Below, piece by piece: positions 23,435 through 59,525 of a DNA stretch of 64,000 nucleotides; within the stretch, counting starts at the first letter, position 1, and every line of letters begins with the position of its first letter. The translations under genes and the position numbers were made by a program. Source of the DNA: Copromyces sp. CBS 386.78 (lineage: Eukaryota; Ascomycota; Sordariomycetes; Sordariales; Sordariaceae); contig MU839106.1 of the NCBI GenBank assembly GCA_030685235.1, forward strand, positions 62,001-126,000, written 5' to 3'. The notes below the pieces were generated by a model, which saw only the letters and a program-made list of their open reading frames with translations, had not been told where the DNA came from and ran no database searches.

Positions 23435-26400
23435 ATGGACCACCACTTCTCGACGGTGCTGCAGCGACCTCCTCATTTTGACGAGGATGGAACAGAAGGG
23501 GGAGATCGAGGAAACGGCGGCGGGCCAGCACCACCACCACCACCACCACCACCACGCGGAGGTATGCGCGACATTCTCAACCCAGTGAGCAGCAACAGCA
23601 GCGCCGTGCAATCATCCCAAGCAGCACCACCACAAGCAGCAGCGTCGTCATCATCATTGCCCCATGGAATTGGAGGACCAGTGCCGCCGCCGCTCTCGAC
23701 GAATTCCATGCGCGCGACGACGCACGGCTCGTCCTCGTTCAATTTGCGATCGCCAACGCAGCAGCAACAATCATCGGAATACCGTCGTCATCCACTTTCC
23801 TCCCTGGCGACTCCAGCACACACTGCACCACCACATCCAGGACCCTTTTCGGCCTCGCCTCCCAACGCCAACAAGGCGCTAGGTGCCGCCGGCAATCTGA
23901 GCAGTCAACCACCACCACCACCCACGGGTCCGCGCTCAATTCTCAACCCTCCAACAACAAGCCAGCAACAACACCAACAACACCACCACCCAAATCCCTT
24001 TGTCGCAGCATCCGCACCCTCGCTGCCACCGCCGCCGCCGCCGACCTCCTCGTTGCAAGCTCCACCTGCCATCACACCAATTGCCGGCCTATCAGCTCCG
24101 GCCCCAGCATCGAGATCGCTACTACCTCTGTCAGCAGGAGGCATTGGAAACTCCATCACGGTCTCGTCGTCGAGCTCGCAACAACCAGCCCGAACATCGC
24201 AACTGCACGCGCCGTCGGCCTATTATTCGCAGGCTGAATCGTTCCGCGATCGGGATTCGTCATTACGCGAAAAATCATCGACAGGCGGCAGCTTTTACGA
24301 CCCAACCGCCGAGGCCAGCAACAACAGCTTCAGCATTAGCGGCCTAAGCCCACGAAAAGATCGAGATCGCGACAACCGCGACCACCACCGGTCTGATACA
24401 ACAAGGCAATCACAGCGCATGGTTTCGGGTCATTCTGACACAGCCTCCTCCTCCCACCTCTCCACGGGAACAAGCTCCTGGCGAAACGCGACCCATACTT
24501 CCGCTTCGGGCTCGGCCACGAACAAGGTAAGCCAACATTTGACATTCACTTGTACTGCAAATGGAATCCACCGAATCACCACACACGCTAGCAATCACCA
24601 CGCAAAAGTCATTGAACCACCAAACCACACTGCAACGCACAACACAACCGAACACGGTCGAGTGGCCATGACAAACTTTCCACTCCCAACACCACAAACC
24701 CCGTCACGTCGTCCTTTATTCACCGCCCGCATTCCCATTCCTTTCCCTTTCTTTCAACACCACCATCCACACATCACCTACACCATCCCCGTCCCCTTCC
24801 ATCTCTTCGCCCACCCTGCCCCCAAGGTTCTCAATGCAGTGACCCTCAAAAGTCAACACTCTAAAAACCTTGGCCCATGGGCGCTGGTCTGAAAATTTAC
24901 AAGTGCACGCCGCCACCACAACAGCTACCACCGATTAATACTGCTACTTCCGCTGCCTCATCCCTTGCCTCCTGGAACACGAAACACCAACACCAACAAT
25001 AACAAAGCTTTGCTGGCACTTTAATTGTTCCAACATCAACTGACCCAACCTTTGCTCTTCTGCAATCATTAGACACGCGATCCGTACAACTATTCCCAGT
25101 CGTCGACCGATTACTACAGAAAGAAAGAAAACTACCCGGCCGACCATACATCGCCTCGATCGATTGCAGCTCCGTCCAACTTTACTGTTGCGACGCGTAG
25201 TCCTATTGCCGCCCTTTCCCATCCGGCATCAGTTGCTGCACCAGCCAGTATCGGAACTGGAAGTGTTGGCAGTCTCGCCAGATCCATCAGCCCCAGGCTT
25301 TCACTCAGACCACCGAGCATGGCCTCTCCCACGATACGAAGCGCCGTCTTAGCTAATCCCACATCCAACGGCACCACCGCACTACCGGCCCTAGGCAGGA
25401 ACGAGTCGCCACCATCCAAGATGTCTTCCACTACATCAACCGTAAGCTCTTTCGCCTTCCGCCCCCATGTACCAGTTGGCAATGTCCATCCTCCTTCCCT
25501 TTGTCCTTCCCCCTCTTTCACGTAACAACCGCTGACAGTAATTGTCGCTTCCAGAATACCAGCCGCGCCGCCGGTGTCATGTCTTTTTCCAACATCCTTT
25601 CTAGCTCCGAGCCTGTTTCCAGGCCCCGCCCAACTTCACCCATGATGGATGACGACGACGACATCCCAATGAAGGTCGAGCGCGCCGATTCATCCGAGAA
25701 GTTTGTCAAGGAGAAGAAGGAGAGGAAACCACGCCAGCCCAAGCAGCCACGCATCTCCGACATCAGGCATTCCGAGTCCACTCCCAAGGGGCGACGAGGG
25801 CCATCGAAGCAAGAGAGTCCTCTGCCCAACATGCGCATTCCAGCCAAGAGAATGGCCAACGGCGTCCTCAAGCAACAGAAGGTGTTTTCGGCCGAAAACG
25901 AGGAGAAGATCAGGAAATGCATGGATAGAATCGAAGCGCGAGAGCTTCCTGATGAATCCGACTACGAGGAGGAGCTGCGCGAGTGGAGGGAGCGACGCGA
26001 GCAGCGGAGGCAAGAGATGAACAATCGCGATCTTCGCCTGCGCCGACTGAGGAGAGCCGAATACACAGAGATCGAGACCCAGAAACTCAAGCTGCATGCC
26101 GACTTTGGAAAGCGTCGATATGACGATCTTAACTACGACGATGCATTGCAAGAGGTCCGGGAGCGTGAGCTCTTTGCCGAGAAGGAGCGCAAGAAGGACA
26201 TGCAGCGTAAGAGGCGGCGTGAGAAGTCCATGGCTACTACTATGGAGGCGAAGGCTGCCGCCTTGGCCAGGGCCTCTGCAGCGCAGGACGAGGCGGAAAG
26301 GCAGAAGTACATGCGCGAAGCCGAGCGGGCCAACAAGAAGGTACAGCAGACCCGACTTATCTTGCAGAAGGGTATCAAGGGCCCGGCTAGGAACCTGAAT

Positions 26401-29400
26401 CCCATCGAGCCGAACCTGGAAGGCGGCACTATGGCTACGTTCCAGGCGGAGAACATGGAGCCTGGCAAGACGAAGGGCAAGGGTCGTGCCGGCACGAGAC
26501 CCAAGAAATCCAAGGAGCAGAAGCAAGCCGAGAAGGATGCCGCCGAGGCTGCCCAAGCCGCTCTTGATGCTGGTCTGGAGCTGCCGCCCAAGGAAGAGAC
26601 CAATAAGATCCGCATCAAGCTTACCAAGACCAAGGCGCCCAAGGAGGTTGACGCGGACAAGGATAAGGAGCCCAAGGAGCCTCAAGAGCCGAAGGAGCCC
26701 AAGGAGCCCAAGGAAAAGGTCAAGGAGAAGGTTGTGGAGGAACCCAAGGATCCGTTGGAGCTCAAGTTCCAGTCCAAGGGCTTCAACCAGATCTATGACC
26801 AGATTTGGCGTGATCTCGCCAGGAAAGACGTCAACAAGGTGTTCAGACTGGCGATCGATTCGTATTCCACAAAGTCATCCAACCTCAAGAAGACCGCCAT
26901 CCTCGCGTCGAAAGAGGCCAAGAGATGGCAGCTCCGTACCAACAAGGGCACCAAGGATCTGCAGGCTCGCGCCAAGCGTGTCATGCGTGACATGATGGGC
27001 TTCTGGAAGCGCAACGAGCGTGAGGAGCGTGATCTGCGGAAGGCAGCTGAGAAGCAAGAGCTGGAGAACGCTCGCAAGGAGGAAGCCGATCGTGAAGCCG
27101 CTCGTCAGAAGAGGAAGCTCAACTTCCTTATCTCGCAGACCGAGCTGTACTCCCATTTCATTGGCAAGAAGATCAAGACCAATGAGGTTGAGCGCAGCAC
27201 GGATCACCCCGATGAGATCGCGGCTAATGAGAATAAGATTCCGGAGAACGACATGGATATCGAGGTGCCCACCGGTCCCATTGGCGCCAAGGTCACCAAC
27301 TTTGAGAATCTAGACTTTGACGCTGAAGATGAATCGACACTGCGGGCCGCTGCCATGGCTAATGCGCAGAATGCCATTGCCGAGGCCCAGAGGAAGGCTA
27401 GAGAGTTCAACAAGGAAGAGTCCAAGCTGGATGAGGATGGCGAGATGAACTTCCAGAACCCGACCATGATGGGCGACGTCGAGATCGAGCAGCCCAAGCT
27501 CCTCAACTGCCAGCTCAAGGAATACCAGCTCAAGGGTCTCAACTGGCTGGTCAACCTGTACGAACAAGGCATCAACGGTATCCTGGCCGATGAAATGGGT
27601 CTTGGAAAGACGGTGCAGTCCATTTCCGTCATGGCCTACCTTGCCGAGAAGTACGATATCTGGGGTCCCTTCTTGGTCGTCGCGCCTGCGTCCACCCTGC
27701 ACAACTGGCAGCAGGAAATCACAAAGTTCGTTCCCCAGTTCAAGGTGCTCCCTTACTGGGGTACTGCGGGCGACCGTAAGGTGCTGCGCAAGTTTTGGGA
27801 TCGCAAGCACACGACTTACAAGAAGGACGCTCCCTTTCATGTCATGATTACCTCGTACCAGCTTGTCGTCTCTGATGTTGCGTACTTCCAGAAGATGAAG
27901 TGGCAGTACATGATTCTTGATGAAGCCCAGGCTATCAAGAGTTCACAGAGTTCCCGTTGGAAGTGCCTGTTGGGTTTCCACTGCCGTAACCGTCTCCTGT
28001 TGACGGGTACGCCTATCCAGAACAACATGCAGGAACTCTGGGCCCTGTTGCATTTCATCATGCCTTCACTCTTCGATTCCCACGACGAGTTCAGCGAGTG
28101 GTTCTCCAAGGACATCGAGTCTCATGCCCAGAGTAATACAAAGCTGAACGAAGACCAGCTGAAGCGTTTGCACATGATCCTCAAACCCTTCATGCTGCGT
28201 CGTGTCAAGAAGCATGTCCAAAAGGAACTCGGCGACAAGATCGAGTTGGACGTCTTCTGCGATCTTACCTACAGACAGCGTGCCATGTACGCCAATCTGC
28301 GCAACCAGATCAGCATCATGGACCTCATCGAGAAGGCGACGCTGGGCGACGACGATTCTGCTAGTCTCATGAATCTCGTCATGCAGTTCCGTAAGGTGTG
28401 CAATCACCCTGACCTCTTCGAGCGTGCGGATACCGCTTCGCCGTACTCGTTCGGTTACTTTGCCGAGACAGCCTCGTTCCTCCGCGAGGGTAATCCGGTT
28501 ACTGTCGGTTACTCTACGCGCAGCTTGATTCAGTATGAGCTGCCTAGACTGCTCTGGCGCGACGGTGGCCGGCTGTACAAGGCTGGTGAGGACAACCAGG
28601 TCGCTGGGTGGCGGAACCAGTGGCTGAACGAGAAGTTCAACATCTGGACTCCGGAGCACATTCGCGAAAGCCTGGCTGGTGCGGACAACTTCTCGTGGCT
28701 GCGCTTTGCCGATACGAGCTACGAGGAGGTCTACCGGGCCAGTCACATGGACCTCTTTGCTCGGGCTGTTGAGATGTCCACCAAGAAGAACCGTCTTGCG
28801 GAGATCAAGATCGCTTACGATGGGCCGGAGGACTCGAACTTCACTCCCGCGCATGCCCTCTTTAAGATCAGGGAGCGCGAGGACAGGAAGCCTTTGGCTG
28901 ACATTACCGAGCAAGGCATTCTAAGTAGGTTGATGAACGTCTCCCACAGTGCATTCTCTGAGACCGGTCTCGGCCGCCTCGAGCAGGCCGCTTGTCCAAA
29001 GACCTCGGCTCCTCCTATCGAGGTTGTCTGCGATAGCCGCGCCTCAGTCGTTGAGCGGGAGAACATCATGTTCAACGCCCCCATGCGCAAGGTCCTCTTC
29101 GGACCTACCCTGGCCGAGGAGAAGGCACTCGTCGTACAGAAGGTGCCGCCATCACGCTACCCGCCTCCAGCCCTGCTTCCTGCACCAGACAAGGAGAAGC
29201 AGAAGTTCACCAACATCACCGTCCCTTCGATGCGCCGCTTCGTCACCGACTCAGGCAAGCTCGCTAAGCTCGACGAGCTGCTCCGCGAGCTCAAGGAGAA
29301 CGGCCACCGCGTCCTTCTCTACTTCCAAATGACCCGCATGATCGACCTCATGGAGGAATACCTCACCTACCGCAACTACAAGTACTGCCGACTCGACGGT

Positions 29401-30234
29401 TCCACCAAGCTCGAAGACCGCCGCGACACCGTCGCCGACTTCCAGACCCGTCCCGAGATCTTCATCTTTTTGCTGTCCACCCGCGCCGGTGGTTTGGGCA
29501 TCAACCTCACGTCCGCCGACACAGTCATCTTCTACGACTCGGATTGGAACCCGACCATCGACTCGCAAGCCATGGATCGCGCCCATCGTCTGGGTCAGAC
29601 CAAGCAAGTCACCGTCTACCGTCTCATCACACGGGGTACCATCGAGGAACGTATCCGCAAGCGCGCCATGCAGAAGGAGGAAGTCCAGCGCGTGGTCATC
29701 ACTGGCGGCTCGTCGGCTGCCGGTGGCGGTGTGGACTTTTCTGGTCGTCGTGCGCCGGAGAACAGGAACCGCGATATCGCCATGTGGTTGGCGGATGACG
29801 AGCAGGCGGAGATGATTGAGAAGCGGGAGCGCGAGCTTCTTGAGAGTGGAGAGATGGAGAAGTTGGCCAAGAAGAGTAGGGGAGGTGCCGGCAGCGGAAA
29901 GAGGAAGAGAGGAGGAGGGGGAGAAGGAGGAGGGAAGGAGGTTAGTTTGGATGAGATGTATCATGAGGGTGAGTACCTTTTGCCTCCTAGTACTAACGGA
30001 ATGGACGTGGGGCTGACAATGACAAAAACAGGCGAGGGTAACTTTGATGATGGTGGCAATGGTGGCATCAAGGGTAGTGGAACTGCTACGCCTAATGTCA
30101 ATGGAGAAGCGGGAGGTGAGGGGAAGGGTGTTGTAGGAGGAGCTGCCAAGAAGAGGAAGACGACGGGTGGTGGTGGAAGCAAGAAGGCTAAGACTACCAA
30201 GCAGAGGTTGGCTATTGCTGATGGGGAGATTTGA
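23435..30234 (+). CDS. INO80: INO80 chromatin-remodelling ATPase
   Basis: Four exons fit, 23435-24526, 25073-25441, 25555-29968 and 30032-30234, with introns of 546, 113 and 63 bases; the last is in frame, so retention would not break the protein. The product has 2025 residues. It is the catalytic subunit of the INO80 complex, which slides nucleosomes and edits H2A.Z in the nucleus. Residues 1-490 are disordered, with Pro, Gln and Ser runs (PPPPPPPP near the start). A DBINO domain lies at about 900-1040 ([16 protein letters not shown] to [10 protein letters not shown]). The SNF2 core has DEMGLGKT at about 1166, DEAQ at about 1276 and [10 protein letters not shown] long insertion of roughly 280 residues separates the lobes, as expected for INO80. 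The second lobe has [39 protein letters not shown] and [11 protein letters not shown]. The C-terminus is a basic, Gly/Lys-rich tail. The start is the first ATG of an exon that stays in frame. Confidence 0.95.
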
Positions 30235-51312: not shown

Positions 51313-51503
51313 CCCCTCCTCCTTCACCTTTTTCCTTCTTCGCAAACTCTTCCTCTTTCCTCATCTCTCGTCACACTCACCTTCTTCTCCTTCTTCTTTT
51401 TCTTCACCTCTTTCATCATCATCTTCTTCTTCTTCAACCATCACGCTCATCATCTTGAGCTTCACATCTTCAGGTAAGAACAGATACTAGCACAAACAGA
51501 GTC

Positions 51504-51624
51504 GCTTCGTGATGAAATGTGGCCGCGTCAGTATTCCTGGTCCGTTCTTGCCAGGTAACGCTGGCGTTGCTGGTAACAGCCTTAGCCTTGAATGGAAGAA
51601 ACTGCCACTATCTGAGATGGAAGC
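51504..51624 (+). ncRNA. box C/D snoRNA, host intron 1
   Basis: C box GTGATGA 51509-51515 and D box CTGA 51612-51615, closed by GCTTC just before C and GAAGC shortly after D. About 115 nt. Confidence 0.7.
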
Positions 51625-51838
51625 AAGAAACACCTCACCTAACCTGACACCATTCGCGTTGTCAAGCAGTTTACTGACGTGTTCTTGTTTTTTTTTTCAA
51701 GGTCAATCATCATCATCACTCATTCGGTCTTCAACTTGCGACGCGACACACATCTTTTACACTTCAACACATTTCAACTTCAAGGTGAGTCACATTGCAC
51801 GGCGTGCTCCTCACTTAGTCCATCTCCCCATTCATCGC

Positions 51839-51905
51839 TGGCAATGATGATCACCCTTACCTTCTTAGCTGTTACTATGAAGACAACTTGTGCCTTCTGA
51901 GCCAC
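51839..51905 (+). ncRNA. box C/D snoRNA, host intron 2
   Basis: C box ATGATGA 51844-51850, D box CTGA 51897-51900, stem TGGC/GCCA. About 65 nt, the shortest of the set. Related to the RNA of intron 3. Confidence 0.75.
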
Positions 51906-52112
51906 ATAGCAGTGTTTGGGTTGACTAGTCCCTTTCTTACCATGATAATGACAATGATGTCAGTTGGGCTAAGTGATTCAGTGTTCACAGGTTTTCATCT
52001 TCATCACTTCGACATCATCAACAACTTCAACTTCATCAACTTCATCAACTTCAACAAGGTCAAGGTGAGTCACATTGCACAGCGTGCTCGCTTAGTCCAA
52101 CCCCATCCATCG

Positions 52113-52183
52113 CTGGCAATGATCATATCTCTCATTGTGTCCTGATGCCTCATGAAGTCCTGCGTGCCACCATCTGAGCCAGC
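52113..52183 (+). ncRNA. box C/D snoRNA, host intron 3
   Basis: C box ATGATCA 52119-52125 (one base off consensus), D box CTGA 52174-52177, stem GCTGGC/GCCAGC. The intron ends resemble intron 2 (GTGAGTCACATTGCAC), so the two arose by duplication. Confidence 0.65.
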
Positions 52184-52408
52184 GGTGTTTGGATTTTCCT
52201 GACCGGTCCCTTTCTTACATCATGACAATGACAATGACAATTTCGGTTGGGCTAAGTGATTCAGTCTTTCACAGGTTTCTTGCTTTTTTCATCACCTCGA
52301 CATCATCATCATCGACATTATCGCGACTTCAACTTCACACACACACACACACACACACATTCAGGTAGGTCCGATCCCTACTTAGCTTCTCCTTGTGCGC
52401 GGCAGAAC

Positions 52409-52526
52409 CCCCCATGTGGCGATGAAGACAACCCATCGGCTCCTTAATGTTGACTGCTGGTCCAGTCACGCCTCTATGTGACACTGTCTCTGTGGGCGAG
52501 GTGGAGATGGTACTGATGTCACGGGT
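52409..52526 (+). ncRNA. candidate box C/D snoRNA, host intron 4
   Basis: C-like GCGATGA 52419-52425, D box CTGA 52513-52516, weak stem GTG/CAC. Supported mainly by its close copy in intron 5. Confidence 0.45.
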
Positions 52527-52699
52527 TTTGTTTCGTCTTTGTCTTTGGACTTTGACTCGTGTGTTCGGTTTTGCTAACCCGCGTTGCGGTGATCTCAGGT
52601 TTTCATCATCTTCGGTCTTCGACACTCATCTTCAACTTCTTCTTCATCATTTGGTAGGTCCTACTCCTACTTAGTTTCATTCCTTGTGCGCGGCAGGAC

Positions 52700-52819
52700 C
52701 CCCAATGTGGCGATGAAGACAACCCATCGGCTCCTTAATGTTGACGGTGCCACGCACGTCACGCCTCTAAGTGACACTGTCTCTGTGGACGAGGTGGAGA
52801 TGGTACTGATGTCACGGGT
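52700..52819 (+). ncRNA. candidate box C/D snoRNA, host intron 5
   Basis: C-like GCGATGA 52710-52716, D box CTGA 52806-52809. Strongly similar to intron 4 over its whole core, including ATGTGGCGATGAAGACAACC. Confidence 0.45.
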
Positions 52820-54071
52820 TTTGTTTGGTCTTTGTCTTCAGACTTGGATTCGTGTGTTCGGTTTGGCTAACCCGCTTTGCGGTCATCTTTTCAGGTCTTC
52901 GTCATCGACACCATCGGTCTGTGGTCTTCAGCCTTCGGCTTGCTCTCTCTTTCATGCACATCAGGTAGGTGCACCTACTTAGCCTTGCCTTGGGATGTGG
53001 GATCAGTATCAGGACCACGGTGTGCACACCAGGTTGGAGGTGGCTGTACTTGAAGACATGACAATGACAATAACAACAAGACCCTCCGGGACCGAGTCTG
53101 GGGTGACCAAGGAGGATGGGCCTTGGCTAACTTTTTCAGTCTTCATTGCAGGTCTTTACCATCTTCTCCGACTCGACACATTTCAGCGACCGAGACAGCA
53201 CAACAATTGTTCCATGTCATGCAATCATCGTCAGGTGAGTTCATTGCACAACGAATTCACTCAGTTCAGCCGGGTCGGTGTCATGACTGTCGGGCGCCGC
53301 TTGCGAGTGCCTGTGGTCTCTGGGGCTTGCCACCTCAGGGAAAGCGGCCATTCTCAGGGGGGCTGTGCCAGGCCTCTCTGGGGACGTTTGCGGTATAAAG
53401 ATCCTTCCCTTCCCAGCCTGGCGCCGCGCAGGACCCAATCCGGGCACCCTGCGGGCATCTCTCATTGGGACACCATGAACAGATTGGGCTGACACTTTCA
53501 GACTTTGACAACAGGTTTCGGGACTTCGACTTCGACTTCACACATTGGTGTGGGCAGCTTTCAATCTGTGCGACTGGGCGCTGCGGGGGGGCTGACGGGG
53601 ACTTTGTCCTGGGCACCTCCCCGCGGTTTCTTCTCTCCGCGACTTTTGTCTGTCAACATGACAACAACAACAACATGAACTTCAAATGTGAGTAGGCCTG
53701 CCACCCTGCTCACTTAGCCCAGCCAGCCTTCTTTCCTTGCATGCCAAAGCTTGGAGAGGTTGTCTGGTGTCTGTGCCTGTTCCGAGAAGTAGTGACCCTT
53801 GGTTCAGGAGGACTGTTGGAGATGCCACTTCGGGATTGATGCCCCCGTTGCTTCACAGTCGACATCTATCATTCAAGACTTCGTCCACCTTGTTTCATGG
53901 ATTGGGCTAACATTATTTTTGTGGCGGTCAGGTTGTTTTCGCTGCCATCATTCAGTCCCGGTTTGCAGAGTTCAACGACACTTGACACCTCAGCGACAAG
54001 TCAACATGTCATCTCTCGACACCTCTTTGCAAACGTGTAAGTGTTTCCCGGTCACCTGTGTTCTGCCTTTC

Positions 54072-54270
54072 CTGCCGATGATGAGAACGAGTGGTCACAC
54101 ACGATCGTTTCGACTTTCGTCCCTGTGGCATGTACACAAGTCTGAAATTAACAGGGTGTTGTAAACTGGTCTGGTGCTTGCATCTGGACTCAGCATTCCT
54201 CGCTGATGCACAAAGCCACTCTGCCGTAGATAGCGAGGGGTCGGCTTTTCACTCTTAACTCTGAGGCACC
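54072..54270 (+). ncRNA. long box C/D snoRNA, host intron 9
   Basis: C box ATGATGA 54078-54084, D' CTGA 54142-54145, C'-like CTGATGC near 54203, D box CTGA 54261-54264, stem TGCC/GGCA. First of four related copies (introns 9-12). An internal CCTCGCT/AGCGAGG hairpin is present. Confidence 0.65.
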
Positions 54271-54429
54271 TTTCATTGACATCAGTCTTTGACTTCATCA
54301 TCTCACTTGAGCTTTCAATGCTGACCGTTTCCGTCATCCAGTTTCAAACGAACTTGGAAAGAGGCCATTCTTTGCGACAAGTCTTTGCGTACCGTAAGTA
54401 CCTGATTCTTCTCCTGTCTTCCATTCCCT

Positions 54430-54592
54430 TGCCAATGATGAGAACGAGTGGTCACATACGCTTTTCGTCCCTGTGGCGCATCTGATATTAGCTGGGTGCT
54501 GTGCATAAGCCAGCATGTCCACGCTGATGTACGACACCACTCTACCGTAGATAGTGTTGGGTCCGCTCTTTTCACTCCAACTCTGAGGCTTC
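54430..54592 (+). ncRNA. long box C/D snoRNA, host intron 10
   Basis: C box ATGATGA 54435-54441, D' CTGA 54482-54485, D box CTGA 54583-54586, stem GCC/GGC. Copy of the intron 9 RNA with a changed sequence next to D'. Confidence 0.65.
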
Positions 54593-54753
54593 TTTCATTG
54601 ACACCAGTCTTTGGCTCTCCATCATCCACTTGGACATTGCTAACCGTTTTAGCCATCAATCTTGCAGACAAACACGGCCGACGATGACATTCTTTGCAAC
54701 ATCAGAAAGTCTGGCGCGTAAGTACCTTGTTCTTCTCCCGTCTTCCTTTTCCT

Positions 54754-54977
54754 TGCCGATGATGAGAACGAGTGGCCATCACACGATTGTTTCGACTTTC
54801 GTCCCTGTGGCCATTGTCTGAAATTAACTGGGGTGCTTGCGGCCTTGTGCTTTGGAAAAGGGGATTCGGCACTTGTGCTTACCAGATGAAGGGCAGCACT
54901 TCCTCGTTGATGCACAAAATCACTCTGTCGTAGATAGAGCGGGGTTGGATCATTTCACTCAAAAACTCTGAGGCTCT
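54754..54977 (+). ncRNA. long box C/D snoRNA, host intron 11
   Basis: C box ATGATGA 54759-54765, D' CTGA 54818-54821, D box CTGA 54968-54971, stem GCC/GGC. Carries an extra block (GGAAAAGGGGATTCGGCACT) shared with intron 12. Confidence 0.65.
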
Positions 54978-55142
54978 TTCATGGACATTTGTCTTTGCTT
55001 CTTTCGGTCTTTGACCTTCTCACTTGAGCAATGCTGACCATTTCTGTAGAAGGTATCATGACCATCACAGACTTCCACTGTGAACAAACTTCAGCGTAAG
55101 TCTCAGTCTTTTTCCTGTCCTGGTTTCATTCATGCCTCTCTT

Positions 55143-55358
55143 CGCCGATGATGAGAACGAGTGGCCACATACGATCTTCGTCCCTGTGGCTTGGAGCTTC
55201 TGAAACTAGCTGGGTGCTTTGCGGCGCGGTGCTTCGGAAAAGGGGATTCGGCACTGGTAGCTTACCAGATGAAGGGCAAGCATTTCCTCGCTGATGGACA
55301 ACACCACTCTCCCGTAGATAGCGTGGGGCCCGATCTTTCACTCTAACTCTGAGGCGTC
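55143..55358 (+). ncRNA. long box C/D snoRNA, host intron 12
   Basis: C box ATGATGA 55148-55154, D' CTGA 55200-55203, D box CTGA 55349-55352, stem GCC/GGC. Closest to intron 11. Confidence 0.65.
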
Positions 55359-55545
55359 TTCATGGACACCAGCTGGTCTTTGAGTCTTTTGAACATCTCG
55401 CTTGAGCATTGTTAACCATCGGTGTTGATCATCGTGTTCACAGACTTCCACTGCCAACGCAGGCTTTTCAGGCTCCGCAAGAGAGATCACCGCAGCCCCC
55501 CGCAGAGTAAGTCTCAATCTTTGTTCGACCCTCCTTCTTCCCTCT

Positions 55546-55656
55546 TGGCCGATGATGAAAACGCAACCAATTTCTGTTCTTCTTTTGAGGGTGCCAACTT
55601 TTCACAGTCGAGGACTGTCACGGCTCAATGAGATCAAAAAAGCGTACTGAGGCCCC
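55546..55656 (+). ncRNA. box C/D snoRNA, host intron 13
   Basis: C box ATGATGA 55552-55558, D box CTGA 55647-55650, stem GGCC/GGCC. Shares with introns 14-16 the internal block ACTGTC.CGGCTC.ATGA. Confidence 0.75.
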
Positions 55657-55833
55657 CGGAAATCTTTCAACACTTGTCAGGATTTCTTTTCTTGGTTCTT
55701 TGCTAACATGGACAGTTCTCGTCACAGATCGCTTCGTCCCCGTTAGAGGTGCCGGTCGCTTGAGAGTAGCCTAGGTAGCAATACAATCCATTGCCATTCA
55801 GTAAGTCATACAGCCCTTTTCCTCTTCCCGCCT

Positions 55834-55940
55834 GGCCGATGATGACAAAATCCCTTTTCCTTGAATCGAGAGCGCAAAGCTTCCACAGTCGAGGACTGTC
55901 CCGGCTCAATGAGATCAAACATGCGCACTACTGAGGCCAT
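55834..55940 (+). ncRNA. box C/D snoRNA, host intron 14
   Basis: C box ATGATGA 55839-55845, D box CTGA 55931-55934, stem TGGCC/GGCCA. Same family as introns 13, 15 and 16. Confidence 0.78.
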
Positions 55941-56101
55941 CACAATCCTCTCAACACTTGTCTGCGTTTCTTTGTTTGGTCTCTTTACTGACATGACCAT
56001 TGCAGGTTTTCGGTCTCGGCAGTCCTCTCAAGCTCTTGCTGCAATTGAGGCTCAGAAACTTGAGTAAGTCAGACACCCCCTTGCTTCTCCTGCTTCCCGC
56101 T

Positions 56102-56213
56102 TGGTTCATGATGACCACATAACATAATCTGCTTTCGAGAGCGCAAAGCCTTCACAGTCCATCAACTGTCACGGCTCCATGAGACAAAACTCTACCAAAT
56201 GGCCTGAAACCAC
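56102..56213 (+). ncRNA. box C/D snoRNA, host intron 15
   Basis: C box ATGATGA 56108-56114, D box CTGA 56204-56207, stem TGGTT/AACCA. The stem has changed on both sides relative to intron 16, a compensatory pattern. Confidence 0.78.
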
Positions 56214-56360
56214 CAGCATTCGTTCAACACTTGTCGGCATCTCTTCCATCTCTCTGGCCCTTTGCTGACGTTGTTCATCACAGGTCACTTTGTGTTCAGC
56301 ATCCACCGCAAATTCTGCCAGAAGCTTGAGTAAGTCAGACACTTCTTCCTCTACTTCCCT

Positions 56361-56469
56361 GGCCAATGATGACGAAATGTCGAGGTTGTATTGAGAGTGC
56401 AAAGCCTTCACAGTCCAAAAACTGTCACGGCTCCATGAAATCAAACAATAGCAAATGCACTGAGGCCAC
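56361..56469 (+). ncRNA. box C/D snoRNA, host intron 16
   Basis: C box ATGATGA 56366-56372, D box CTGA 56460-56463, stem TGGCC/GGCCA. Confidence 0.78.
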
Positions 56470-56632
56470 CAGCAACCGTTGTTCCAGTTCTTGTCAGATT
56501 CTCCCATGTCTTGGGTTGTCCGCTAACGGGTTCAGGAAATGTTGCAGTTTCTCTCTCTTCCACTTGGTCGTTTGGTCGCAGCTCAACCACTTGGTAAGTC
56601 TGTCACTTCTCCCTCACCTCCATCCTACCACC

Positions 56633-56738
56633 GCTTGCACATGATGATCAACCAAAATATTTCATGTACATTTGCTTCTGAGAGTGCAACAACTTCGACT
56701 CCTTCATGACGCAAACAACCAATGCCTGAGGGCAAGCC
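56633..56738 (+). ncRNA. box C/D snoRNA, host intron 17
   Basis: C box ATGATGA 56641-56647, D box CTGA 56726-56729, stem GCTTGC/GCAAGC. Near-copy of intron 18; the two differ chiefly just before D, where the guide lies. Confidence 0.78.
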
Positions 56739-56891
56739 ACACTATTCGCACTTGTGTTCGAGGCTCCAACTCTGACAGGAAACTGACCGCTCTTTTCCTT
56801 TCAGGCACTTACCAGGTCTTTTTCCTCCGCCAAAAAATGTTGCACCTTGGTAAGCCAACCACTCCTTTCACACCTGCACCACAACCCACCA

Positions 56892-56996
56892 CTTGCATCT
56901 GATGATCAACCGAAATATTTCATGTACATTTGCTTCGGAGAGTGCAACAACTTCGACTCCTTCATGACGCAAAAAATCAAAAGCCTGAGGGCAAGC
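56892..56996 (+). ncRNA. box C/D snoRNA, host intron 18
   Basis: C box CTGATGA 56899-56905, D box CTGA 56985-56988, stem CTTGC/GCAAG. Paired with intron 17. Confidence 0.72.
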
Positions 56997-57170
56997 AAAA
57001 ATCTCTGCACTTGCATACGAGTCTCCCATGTTGACAGAAAGCTGACTGCCCTTCGTATGGATTCCAGGCACTTGCCCGATTGCCCGTCTTCTTCCTTCGA
57101 CAAAGAATAGCCACACCTTGGTAAGCCAGTCACCGTGCCCCTCTCTTACTCCCCTCCACACCACCTAAGC

Positions 57171-57274
57171 TTGGATATGATGAAACAGGACCAAGCCAAT
57201 GCTTGAGACCCAAACACTTTCGACTGCTCAATGACAGAGAAAAAAAAGTCCCATGCCGTTGCTCTGAGACCAAT
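57171..57274 (+). ncRNA. box C/D snoRNA, host intron 19
   Basis: C box ATGATGA 57177-57183, D box CTGA 57264-57267, stem TTGG/CCAA. Paired with intron 20 (shared CACTTTCGMCTGCTCAATGA). Confidence 0.7.
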
Positions 57275-57437
57275 AAACTTTTTCTGCACTTGCAATCACT
57301 TTCGCATCAATTGTATTTGATCTTGGCTAACCGTCAAGTCCTTTCAGGCACTTGCCACCCAGTCCTTCTACCGGCCGACCGGACTTCGACCGAGCAGCGG
57401 TGGTAAGTCAAACTCCTCTCGCCTCCACCAGACCCCA

Positions 57438-57542
57438 AGCTTGCCAATGATGAAATAGACCTGCCATATTCTTAGAACCAAACACTTTCGCCTGCTCAAT
57501 GACAGAGGAAAAGAGTCCCATGCCGTTATTCTGAACCAGCTT
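57438..57542 (+). ncRNA. box C/D snoRNA, host intron 20
   Basis: C box ATGATGA 57447-57453, D box CTGA 57531-57534, stem AAGCT/AGCTT. Confidence 0.72.
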
Positions 57543-57867
57543 CATTCACTTTCACGCACTTGCCCTTCAGTCTTTACCTTTGACACGAAGCTGACCACTT
57601 GGCATTATGGATCTCAAACAGGCATCACGACCTCTTTCGCCTTCGTGACACCACATAAAGAGCGCATTGAAGATGACGCGACACTCGCCGACACACCTCG
57701 ATCTCAGGGACTCCTTCGCTGCTCCCCAACGCTTTGAGCGACGCGACCGAGCAGCGGCCAAGGCAACAACCGGCGCGGAACAAGGCGTGGAAACGCAGTC
57801 AAAGAGAAAGAAAGGTAAGCCAGCCAGCTGCCCGCCTTGTCCCGCACAAACACATCAACAACAACAA

Positions 57868-57977
57868 CTTCCAATGATGAAAACATCTTCAACTTCAAGT
57901 GAAGGCCGAACCCAAAAGCATACTTAGTGGTAGACATGAGGAGAACAAGACTCGTACTCATTCCAACTGACTGGAAA
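57868..57977 (+). ncRNA. box C/D snoRNA, host intron 21, probable 18S guide
   Basis: C box ATGATGA 57874-57880, D box CTGA 57967-57970, stem TTCCA/TGGAA. The 13 bases before D (GTACTCATTCCAA) are complementary to the conserved 18S rRNA segment TTGGAATGAGTAC. By the box D plus five rule the methylated base would be the first A after TTGG. From memory this corresponds to yeast 18S Am541, guided there by snR41; the numbering needs checking. Confidence 0.78.
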
Positions 57978-58185
57978 CACCATGCGGCGATCTCTAACCC
58001 AAACACTTGTCTTTAAGAGATCTTTGCTAACCTGCTACAATCGCAGAAAGCTCCAGAGAGGGCACGGGCAGACGCGCCACGGCCTTTGAGTCTTTCGTGG
58101 AATTTGCCGCTTCGGACGCCATGAAACAAGCGGGTTGATCGAAAGGTACGTCGTTCACATCTGCTAGTTCCTTCGTCAGCTCTCC

Positions 58186-58296
58186 TCCTTTCCATGATGA
58201 CAAACGTGAAGATTCTACACCTGTCAAAGAAAAGGCCATTCCTCCATGGCCGGTTCAATGAAGATGAAATCCATGAGCTGTCTTCTGATTCCGGAG
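58186..58296 (+). ncRNA. box C/D snoRNA, host intron 22
   Basis: C box ATGATGA 58194-58200, D box CTGA 58285-58288, weak stem CTCC/GGAG. Related to introns 23 and 24. Confidence 0.65.
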
Positions 58297-58477
58297 CATT
58301 CATCTCGTTCCTTGGAAAACGCAACCTTCAATCAGGGATCATTGTTGCTAATCATCTCTTGTTGAACGCAGGCAACCAACTACCTTACCTCTCTCCGATG
58401 AGAGCGCTCTTTGATCCCGTTTGCATCCATGGTAAGCCGTTCCCGTGTCACCTCCCTTCGTGTTGAGTTAGCTCTAC

Positions 58478-58593
58478 TCCAGTCCCTGCCATGATGACAC
58501 CAGTCGTCAAGAGAACTACACTTACAAAGAGAAAGTCACTTCCATTGATTGTTGTGACGGGCTCCATGAAGACACCGAGATCTGATTTGGATG
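58478..58593 (+). ncRNA. box C/D snoRNA, host intron 23
   Basis: C box ATGATGA 58491-58497, D box CTGA 58582-58585, stem TCCA/TGGA set back from the boxes. Confidence 0.65.
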
Positions 58594-58755
58594 GGGACAC
58601 TCACCGCGCGTATAAAACCGGGTACCTCCTCTGGAAAGCATTGCTGACCATCAAGCTTGACAGCGGCACCGCCTGTAATCCTTCCATAGAGGGTCAGAGA
58701 CTTCCGTCGAAACTGCGAAGGTGAGCGGTTCTTCTTCTGCCTACCCGTTCCATCA

Positions 58756-58868
58756 GCTCCCCTTCCACGATGATTCCCAAACCTTAGACAAACCTGTCAA
58801 AGAGCCTTCACTTTCCATGTGATCAGCTCAATGATGACACAGAGTTGCTTAAATCTGAATTTCGGAGC
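58756..58868 (+). ncRNA. box C/D snoRNA, host intron 24
   Basis: C-like ACGATGA 58767-58773, D box CTGA 58855-58858, stem GCTCC/GGAGC. Shares CCTGTCAAAGA and TCAATGAWGA-type blocks with intron 22. Confidence 0.6.
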
Positions 58869-59429
58869 ACTCACCACGTTGATAACCATCACTTCTTCCT
58901 CAAGACCTTGAGGCTAACCATCTGCCATGCCCACCAACCTCCAGGTTTCCGTGCGCGCTGCCGCCTCGTGCATCCCGTCGTTATGCTCATCGACTTTACC
59001 CAGTGCCGACCGGTCTCGAATTCCCTCCGACTTGCGCCCGAAGACGGCACCCCTACTCCCTGTGCTCCTCCAGGTTGGTAGGCGCCTGAGGGCCAGTCTG
59101 GAACCCACTTCACAACTCTCAATCACCGCATCACATTTCAACCTGTGGTGCGGTCGCCCAGCTTGCGAGCTTAAGGCCCCGTTGCTTCTCTCCCTATCAA
59201 CTGGGGTAGAGTCAAGCGGGCAGCGACCGCAGGCTGGGTCGGGCTGGGCCGCCTTTGTGCCGACCGAAGTTGTCCTTCTCCTCCGAGTTCCTCTCATGCC
59301 GAGTCCGTTGCAGCCTCGCCCTCACCTCCCTGAACCGCGCAAAGCCCACGACGACAGCGAAGCCTCGTGCTTCTTACCTGTCTGCTTTCTGTTGTGGCAA
59401 GGCTCGCCCAGCAGCAAAGCCAGCCCCGA

Positions 59430-59525
59430 AGTGGAAGCCAGAGCCGTTGACCCTGTTGCCCTCAACATCCCGACTTACCACAAGGTTGTCAAGAAGCCGA
59501 TGGACTTGGCGACCCTCTTGTGGTA
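59430..59525 (+). pseudogene. bromodomain fragment, Bdf1-like
   Basis: 59440-59517 reads VDPVALNIPTYHKVVKKPMD then LATL and hits TGG TAG. NIPxYHxVIKKPMDLxT is the core of the second bromodomain of Bdf1/BET proteins. The acetyl-lysine Asn helix that should follow is absent. Flanking sequence upstream is Arg/Pro-rich and not bromodomain-like. Confidence 0.55.

Follow-up and report, generated by a model that had tools for sequence, protein, structure and literature searches.

A predicted spliced non-coding gene with 21 intronic box C/D RNAs lies on the forward strand of a 64-kb stretch of the Copromyces sp. CBS 386.78 genome (the window, within an assembly of 49.8 Mb in 273 contigs), and this arrangement is well supported by its sequence. 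Our favored reading, to which we assign a probability of about 0.72, is a spliced non-coding host of mostly orphan C/D RNAs that would have grown by tandem duplication and holds perhaps one guide for ribosomal RNA (rRNA). By orphan we mean lacking an rRNA guide next to the D box in the rRNA tested, in which the large-subunit (LSU) rRNA was incomplete; most of the array RNAs look like orphans in this sense.

Donor, branch-site, and acceptor signals delimit 24 introns between positions 51474 and 58944 (+), as an initial annotation of this DNA had proposed when it described about 24 introns with regular donors, branch sites, and acceptors. The introns are 187 to 353 nucleotides (nt) long, with a median of 226.5 nt, and the internal exons 25 to 193 nt; donors follow each other at intervals of 256 to 453 nt, below 400 bp in 20 of 23 cases. 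Intron borders were curated by hand, and alternative acceptors are present, for example in introns 6, 7, 16, and 23. The GCTAAC or GCTGAC branch sites described earlier held up as splice signals, except that introns 2 and 3 (CTAAG), 12 (TTAAC), and 22 (CTAAT) depart from the consensus. With the assumed gene ends, the spliced exons amount to 1985 nt, and their longest ATG-initiated frame encodes 108 amino acids, which falls inside the range of 300 shuffles (mean, 93; 95th percentile, 146). We therefore rejected a protein-coding gene, as the spliced exons contain no notable reading frame. The non-coding host claimed by the initial annotation is well supported by the sequence, and the gene is apparently a spliced, non-coding host of the UHG/GAS5 type. 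Hosts of this type yield spliced polyadenylated transcripts, of which the array shows the splice signals.

Box C/D small nucleolar RNAs (snoRNAs) have their C box (RUGAUGA) close to the 5' end, their D box (CUGA) close to the 3' end, and a terminal stem adjoining the boxes, and C/D RNAs are bound by Snu13, Nop56, Nop58, and fibrillarin. All introns but 6, 7, and 8 (21 of 24) have a C-like box and a CTGA in place. We scored a C-like box as at most one mismatch to RTGATGA 30 to 62 nt after the donor, and a D box as CTGA 52 to 80 nt before the branch-point adenosine (branch A); as scored, the observed distances were 35 to 59 nt and 53 to 72 nt, respectively. In 2,000 mononucleotide shuffles of the intron interiors, a mean of 0.12 and a maximum of 2 of the 24 introns passed this combined test, which was designed after the pattern had been seen, and none of 15 pseudo-introns taken from the rest of the window did so. 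The earlier count of at least 21 introns with box C/D RNAs is thereby confirmed at the level of sequence. Intron 3 passes through a CTGA at 53 nt, its assigned D box being at 78 nt. Narrowing the interval to 52 to 66 nt before branch A retained a CTGA in 20 of 24 introns (intron 3 again through the incidental CTGA), compared to a mean of 2.5 and a maximum of 8 introns in 1,000 dinucleotide shuffles. The C box is an exact RTGATGA in 16 introns and has one mismatch in five. By itself RTGATGA is unspecific, with 71 matches on both strands of the window where 17.8 would be expected; the minus strand of the array accounts for 11 of these. It is the position relative to the splice signals that carries the evidence; in that form, the succession of RTGATGA and CTGA first noticed in most introns stands. 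When an exact C box, a CTGA, and a flush stem of at least 3 bp were demanded within 50 to 230 nt, nine C boxes qualified in the 7.5 kb of the array and none on its other strand; in the other 56 kb, one strand had a single such box and its complement none.

From C box to D box the 21 RNAs measure 57 to 213 nt, or 88 to 213 nt in the 19 other than introns 2 and 3. The initial annotation had most of them closed by a stem of 3 to 6 bp; a flush stem of at least 3 bp with the assigned boxes was found in only 10 of 21, to which intron 18 can be added if its C box is read in a different register, and it is when a few unpaired bases are allowed that the stem reaches a p of ≤0.05 in 14 of 21 and of 0.052 to 0.092 in five more. 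Within introns 13 to 16, which retain an internal hairpin, intron 15 replaces the two inner stem pairs in compensatory fashion (CC/GG to TT/AA). A covariance model built from these four introns recovered its own members and, weakly, intron 17 (E value, 0.93), and for this reason we consider the model narrow. A C'-like ATGA element lies 16 to 33 nt before the D box in all 11 RNAs inspected (introns 13 to 20 and 22 to 24); intron 24 has a second ATGATGA in the C' position, at 58831. Nothing in the window reached the Rfam gathering cutoff, the best weak snoRNA matches lying below it.

Spacing was compared with snoRNAs found by Rfam models in the same genome. The assigned D box lies 56 to 66 nt from branch A in 19 of the 21 introns and at 72 and 78 nt in introns 2 and 3, compared to 58 nt for U14 (Rfam score of 62.3, just under the cutoff of 64), 60 nt for snR52, and 69 nt for snR60. 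Splicing-dependent intronic C/D snoRNAs have their optimum ∼50 nt before the branch point (PMC8162545), and given its likeness to U14 and snR52 the spacing in the array fits RNAs of this kind. U14 and snR52 differ from most of the array in that each has a clear 18S guide, and each has one Rfam match in the genome. The U14 locus (C51:221838-221944) also holds an apparent intron without a C/D RNA and a second RNA with its D box 78 or 82 nt from branch A, which we read as snR190, judging by its place in cluster V of Neurospora crassa. A pattern search for an snR74 cluster gave one match without a C box, which we took as chance.

Guides for rRNA 2'-O-methylation form 10 to 21 bp with rRNA, starting at the D or D' box. 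The assembly contained no match to either of two exact rRNA patterns or to an 18S query sequence, and the rRNA set used (12,287 bases) is from other species, being eukaryotic rRNA that contaminates GTDB records. It comprised a complete 18S and 5.8S taken for yeast, a further fungus-like 18S over its first 1170 nt, and, for the LSU, parts from several eukaryotes plus 300 nt of a record labeled L039, with model positions ∼2310 to 2711 covered by little beyond L039. Five of seven such bacterial records were checked by Rfam and all five held eukaryotic rRNA, and a Planomonospora assembly contains yeast-like ribosomal DNA; we read both as contamination.

In a strict test, with the duplex starting 0 to 2 nt from the D box and at most one GU pair, U14 (score 35; 18S 410 to 424) and snR52 (28; 18S 416 to 427) were recovered, snR60 was found only at its D' box (28), and the snR190-like RNA scored nothing. 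Intron 21 scored 31, its 13 nt adjoining the D box pairing perfectly with 18S in yeast numbering (table below), and the other 20 array RNAs scored 16 to 23. A widened test (up to three GU pairs and one mismatch) recovered the D guide of snR60 as well (34; LSU), and U14, snR52, and snR60 reached the 95% level of a null of 250 random guides. This level was 24, 25, and 26 in three settings, with null maxima of 34, 30, and 32. Only intron 21 reached it from the array, 20 of 21 RNAs lying below it in all three settings. A free antisense search put introns 4, 11, and 21 above all four of their own shuffles, which is about chance for 21 RNAs. On these grounds, and for the rRNA covered, we rejected a rich set of rRNA guides. 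The initial annotation had expected the locus to supply a large share of the rRNA methylation guides and had suggested a guide search against rRNA; that search, with its controls U14, snR52, and snR60 recovered, left one candidate, and many of the RNAs are tandem paralogs. Since 21 tests were made and the null maximum is sometimes higher, intron 21 is a candidate only. By the D+5 rule it may guide 2'-O-methylation of 18S A511 (yeast numbering), and Table 1 of the N. crassa C/D RNAs has no 18S site near 508 to 511 (PMC2780460). The best degenerate D' match (27, with no separate D' null) belongs to intron 11 and is absent from its paralogs. Two other kinds of target were tried and rejected: U6, to which a complementarity search found nothing in the array RNAs, and other plus-strand regions of the window, with best scores of 18 to 28 in a search space that had no separate null.

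The introns fall into families of neighbors. This tandem duplication, the run of introns 6 to 8 that lack C/D boxes, and the donor hairpins of introns 2 to 8 (see below) are additions to the initial annotation. Whole-intron identity is 0.88 for introns 4/5, 0.78 for 17/18, 0.75 for 2/3, and 0.69 for 19/20, and it is 0.63 to 0.74 within introns 9 to 12, 0.66 to 0.70 within 13 to 16, and 0.59 to 0.63 within 22 to 24, compared to a mean of 0.49 and a maximum of 0.54 for 60 shuffled pairs. Across family groups identity reaches 0.61 (18/20 and 15/17), and introns 13 to 24 may for this reason be one older family. In 18 of 19 pairs the identity of the C/D core exceeded that of the following exon, with one tie, and in 12 of 21 it exceeded that of both intron flanks, again with one tie; these pairs of paralogs or neighbors overlap and are not independent. 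In pair 17/18 the core is 0.92 identical, the flanks 0.67 and 0.64, and the exon 0.68; in pair 19/20 the values are 0.80, 0.62 and 0.55, and 0.27. Exon identity between paired units spans 0.27 to 0.68. As the core stands above the exons and the flanks are partly kept too, selection is visible mainly against the exons. Among 15 paralog pairs, the 18 nt before the D box are 72% identical, the body 70%, and the C and D ends 84% and 83%. We considered hypervariable guides among paralogs and do not claim them, guide identity being no lower than that of the body. A whole-array DNA search of the genome found this locus only (best candidates were scored, and distant copies would escape), and a search with one unit returned array copies only.

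Repeat-induced point mutation (RIP) was considered as a source of this divergence. RIP-like indices (product above 1.1, substrate below 0.7) in 16 of 20 small contigs sampled (C254 to C273) indicate that RIP has acted in the genome. The array carries no RIP signature by its indices of 0.45 and 1.33. These values, together with the transitions and transversions counted in four paralog pairs (10/12, 21/20, 27/21, and 13/25), led us to reject RIP as the source of array divergence. RIP acts on repeats above ∼400 bp (PMC2780460), and the shortness of the units, mostly below 400 bp, may have let the array escape it.

Table 1. Features of the host gene and its introns; each C/D RNA is given from C box to D box
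Feature	Position	Strand	Basis or remark
TATA-like TATTTAAA	51305-51312	+	by eye; CT-rich start at the 5' end of the gene, also by eye
Predicted spliced non-coding host gene, 25 exons and 24 introns	51330..59077	+	splice signals; both ends approximate
Intron 1 C/D RNA	51509..51615	+	box positions, stem test
Intron 2 C/D RNA	51844..51900	+	boxes, stem; short, 57 nt; D box 72 nt from branch A
Intron 3 C/D RNA	52119..52177	+	C box ATGATCA; 10-bp terminal stem; D box 78 nt from branch A
Intron 4 C/D RNA	52419..52516	+	C box GCGATGA; terminal stem at chance level
Intron 5 C/D RNA	52710..52809	+	paralog of intron 4 (whole introns 88% identical); stem at chance level
Introns 6, 7, and 8	52965-53151, 53235-53514, 53688-53931	+	no C/D pair in place
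5' splice-site hairpin plus T[TC]AG, introns 2 to 8	51785..53717	+	donors 51785, 52065, 52365, 52654, 52965, 53235, 53688
Intron 9 long C/D RNA	54078..54264	+	
Intron 10 long C/D RNA	54435..54586	+	
Intron 11 long C/D RNA	54759..54971	+	
Intron 12 long C/D RNA	55148..55352	+	
Intron 13 C/D RNA	55552..55650	+	
Intron 14 C/D RNA	55839..55934	+	
Intron 15 C/D RNA	56108..56207	+	two compensatory stem changes relative to introns 13, 14, and 16
Intron 16 C/D RNA	56366..56463	+	
Intron 17 C/D RNA	56641..56729	+	
Intron 18 C/D RNA	56899..56988	+	C box CTGATGA; C/D region 92% identical to intron 17
Intron 19 C/D RNA	57177..57267	+	terminal stem p 0.06
Intron 20 C/D RNA	57447..57534	+	terminal stem p 0.072
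Intron 21 C/D RNA	57874..57970	+	sole D-box guide candidate (18S 507-519, yeast numbering)
Intron 22 C/D RNA	58194..58288	+	terminal stem p 0.058
Intron 23 C/D RNA	58491..58585	+	terminal stem p 0.092
Intron 24 C/D RNA	58767..58858	+	C box ACGATGA; terminal stem p 0.052

Several observations weigh against the reading of a tandemly grown, mostly orphan array. The terminal stems of introns 4 and 5 are no better than chance (p ∼0.4), and the C box of intron 3 is degenerate. Introns 22 to 24 are no more alike than some cross-family pairs, which makes the family borders within introns 13 to 24 soft, and 8 of the 21 pairs have an intron flank that exceeds the C/D core in identity (2/3, 9/10, 10/11, 10/12, 13/15, 14/15, 16/17, and 18/19). 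On the side of the targets, the strict test with its single GU pair misses the D guide of snR60, and intron 21 passes the 95% level and not always the null maximum (34 among the 250 guides in one setting). The snR190-like control scored nothing, and since the rRNAs came from other species and part of the LSU was missing, the term orphan may be overstated.

An alternative is that the RNAs, especially those of introns 9 to 12, act through internal pre-rRNA pairing as rRNA processing or folding chaperones or as acetylation adaptors, like U3, U8, U13, snR4, and snR45. Introns 9 to 12 keep invariant internal blocks and have RNAs of 152 to 213 nt, and in their consensus fold the D-side sequence itself pairs with the C side, although that fold contains one pair with a compensatory change and an unfavorable covariation term. 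The block TTCGTCCCTGTGGC, invariant in introns 9 to 12, can pair in introns 9 and 11 with a conserved LSU stretch that is also matched by the D guide of snR60. Per 100 shuffles, 9 were equally good in intron 9 and 1 in intron 11, a weak lead, but introns 10 and 12 did no better than shuffles (41 and 47 of 100). The free antisense search was also at about chance level (3 of 21 RNAs). We consider such a role unlikely.

We give still less credence to an ordinary cluster of rRNA methylation guides that were missed for want of own-species rRNA, above all LSU domain V. That the snR190-like neighbor of U14, which shares its gene, also scored nothing would fit the LSU gap, intron 21 does have an 18S guide candidate, and the distance between the C'-like element and the D box leaves guide space. 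The D-box result stands against it nonetheless, because 20 of 21 RNAs failed to reach the 95% null level with a complete 18S and 5.8S and a large part of the LSU, even when three GU pairs and one mismatch were tolerated. Moreover, the 18 nt before the D box are no better kept than the rest, unlike what would be expected of guide isoforms.

Other elements of the array lie at or near the splice signals. At the start of introns 2 to 8, the first five donor bases pair in a hairpin that would mask the 5' splice site (GTGAG with CTCAC, CTCGC, or TTCAC; GTAGG with CCTAC), and T[TC]AG follows directly after the stem. This combination occurs in all seven of these introns, including introns 6 to 8, which share it despite their missing C/D boxes, and in none of the other 17; in 2,000 shuffles it averaged 0.03 introns and never exceeded 2. 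We framed the pattern only once it had been sighted, and 2/3 and 4/5 are paralogs. The hairpin alone is unremarkable (11 of 24 introns; mean of 4.5 and maximum of 14 in shuffles), and within introns 2 to 8 donor positions 3 and 4 covary with the opposite strand. In addition, ACTTG stands 10 to 45 nt before branch A in 12 of 24 introns (5, 9 to 11, 13 to 15, and 17 to 21), compared to a mean of 0.9 and a maximum of 5 in 500 shuffles; the distances in these 12 run from 15 to 42 nt. It also precedes the branch point in the U14 intron of the same genome. Many of the 12 introns are paralogs, and its recurrence is therefore partly shared descent. ACTTG could pair with the donor GTAAGT, and together the donor hairpins and ACTTG elements may suggest splicing control. 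Intron 7 (280 nt) folds somewhat better than its shuffles (z, −2.2), and introns 6 and 8 do not. Box H/ACA snoRNAs have a hairpin-hinge-hairpin-tail fold with H and ACA boxes. No clear H box was seen by eye in the folds of introns 6 to 8, nor did they have an Rfam H/ACA match at an E value of ≤3; intron 7 might encode another class of RNA.

These elements would also suit a purely cis role, in which C/D-like folds shorten long introns or delay splicing and no stable RNAs are released, and so would intron lengths well above the N. crassa median of 76 nt (PMC3951366). Such a role is improbable, however, as the boxes and branch-point spacing match those of U14 and snR52, and RTGATGA and CTGA would be needless for a cis structure. 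Decayed snoRNA pseudogenes or chance would account for the weak boxes or stems of introns 3, 4, and 5 but can hardly hold for the array, since the position and stem tests exclude chance for the set and the core is kept above the exons.

Under the favored reading of a host for mostly orphan C/D RNAs, we infer splicing, RNA release, and ribonucleoprotein (RNP) formation from the observed anatomy. By analogy with established biology, each of the 21 introns would release one C/D RNA through splicing-coupled snoRNP assembly. With the D box at a constant spacing from the branch point, the intron would be debranched and then trimmed from both ends, and the proteins of the C/D kink-turn would protect the RNA core. 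The array would have grown by tandem duplication of exon-intron units followed by divergence, the C/D core being kept better than the exons. Rather than serving as a set of ribosomal guides, its products would probably form a family of C/D RNPs that are structural or act on targets other than rRNA, with perhaps one rRNA guide in addition. A bolder extension, possible but tentative, would make this an orphan C/D array of the Sordariaceae lineage that is still diversifying, arose independently of SNORD115/116, escaped RIP through its short units, has non-rRNA targets, and is gated in the splicing of its first half by the donor hairpin of introns 2 to 8.

Two other features were noted in the window. 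A frame at 25597-30234 encodes an INO80 protein (NCU08919 in N. crassa), whose residues 700 to 1000 share 99% identity with proteins of Sordaria macrospora and Neurospora tetraspora, which suggests a close relationship to these fungi within the Sordariaceae; the first row of that search by E value was a bird-labeled record with 68% identity. Just downstream of the array, at 59464-59517, lies a possible bromodomain remnant (Pfam E value of 0.069, below the cutoff).

To our knowledge, orphan C/D RNA arrays have been described mainly in mammals, in which their role is contested and difficult to investigate. SNORD115 and SNORD116 in SNHG14, in the Prader-Willi region, come closest in layout, with one non-coding host and one C/D RNA per consecutive intron (29 SNORD116 and 48 SNORD115 introns; PMC11608373). 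Our array resembles them in having tandem paralogs, mostly without an evident target in the rRNA tested; it differs in being fungal, in combining several families in one host, and in its units of 256 to 453 bp. SNORD116 is described as divergently placed relative to the branch point (PMC8162545), whereas the D boxes of the array lie at the usual distance and one unit has an rRNA guide candidate. With UHG, GAS5, and N. crassa clusters I to V (PMC2780460), the locus shares an apparently non-coding, predicted spliced host with short reading frames only and intronic C/D RNAs. It departs from fungal clusters of distinct rRNA guides, such as the seven of snR72-78 (PMC3596301), in its 21 RNAs, its many paralogs, and its single candidate. 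In the passages of openly accessible literature searched, a fungal tandem orphan array of this kind was not found.

For N. crassa, 55 C/D RNAs are reported, of which 45 are intronic, with six clusters, and the computational screen was confined to 75 to 130 bp (PMC2780460), so that long orphan RNAs would come to light there mainly by cDNA (complementary DNA) cloning. Two of the orphans, CD53 (212 nt, intergenic) and CD55 (137 nt, in an intron), both map to linkage group IV (PMC2780460, Table 1). CD53 falls in the length range of the introns 9 to 12 class; for both, orthology is a lead only.

In our best reading of the sequence, the locus is thus a 21-unit array of mostly orphan C/D RNAs in a fungus, convergent with SNORD115/116 and situated in a RIP-affected genome. 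Its 21 intronic units exceed the largest fungal cluster named in the literature passages, that of seven (PMC3596301). The array bears on two statements about N. crassa. One is that its snoRNA genes are mostly singletons, a feature linked to RIP by the authors (PMC2780460); the other is that it has only 23 spliced long intergenic non-coding RNA genes, or 1.6% (PMC5738166). If the locus is also present in N. crassa, deletion of individual units or of the entire array would become possible in a haploid organism.

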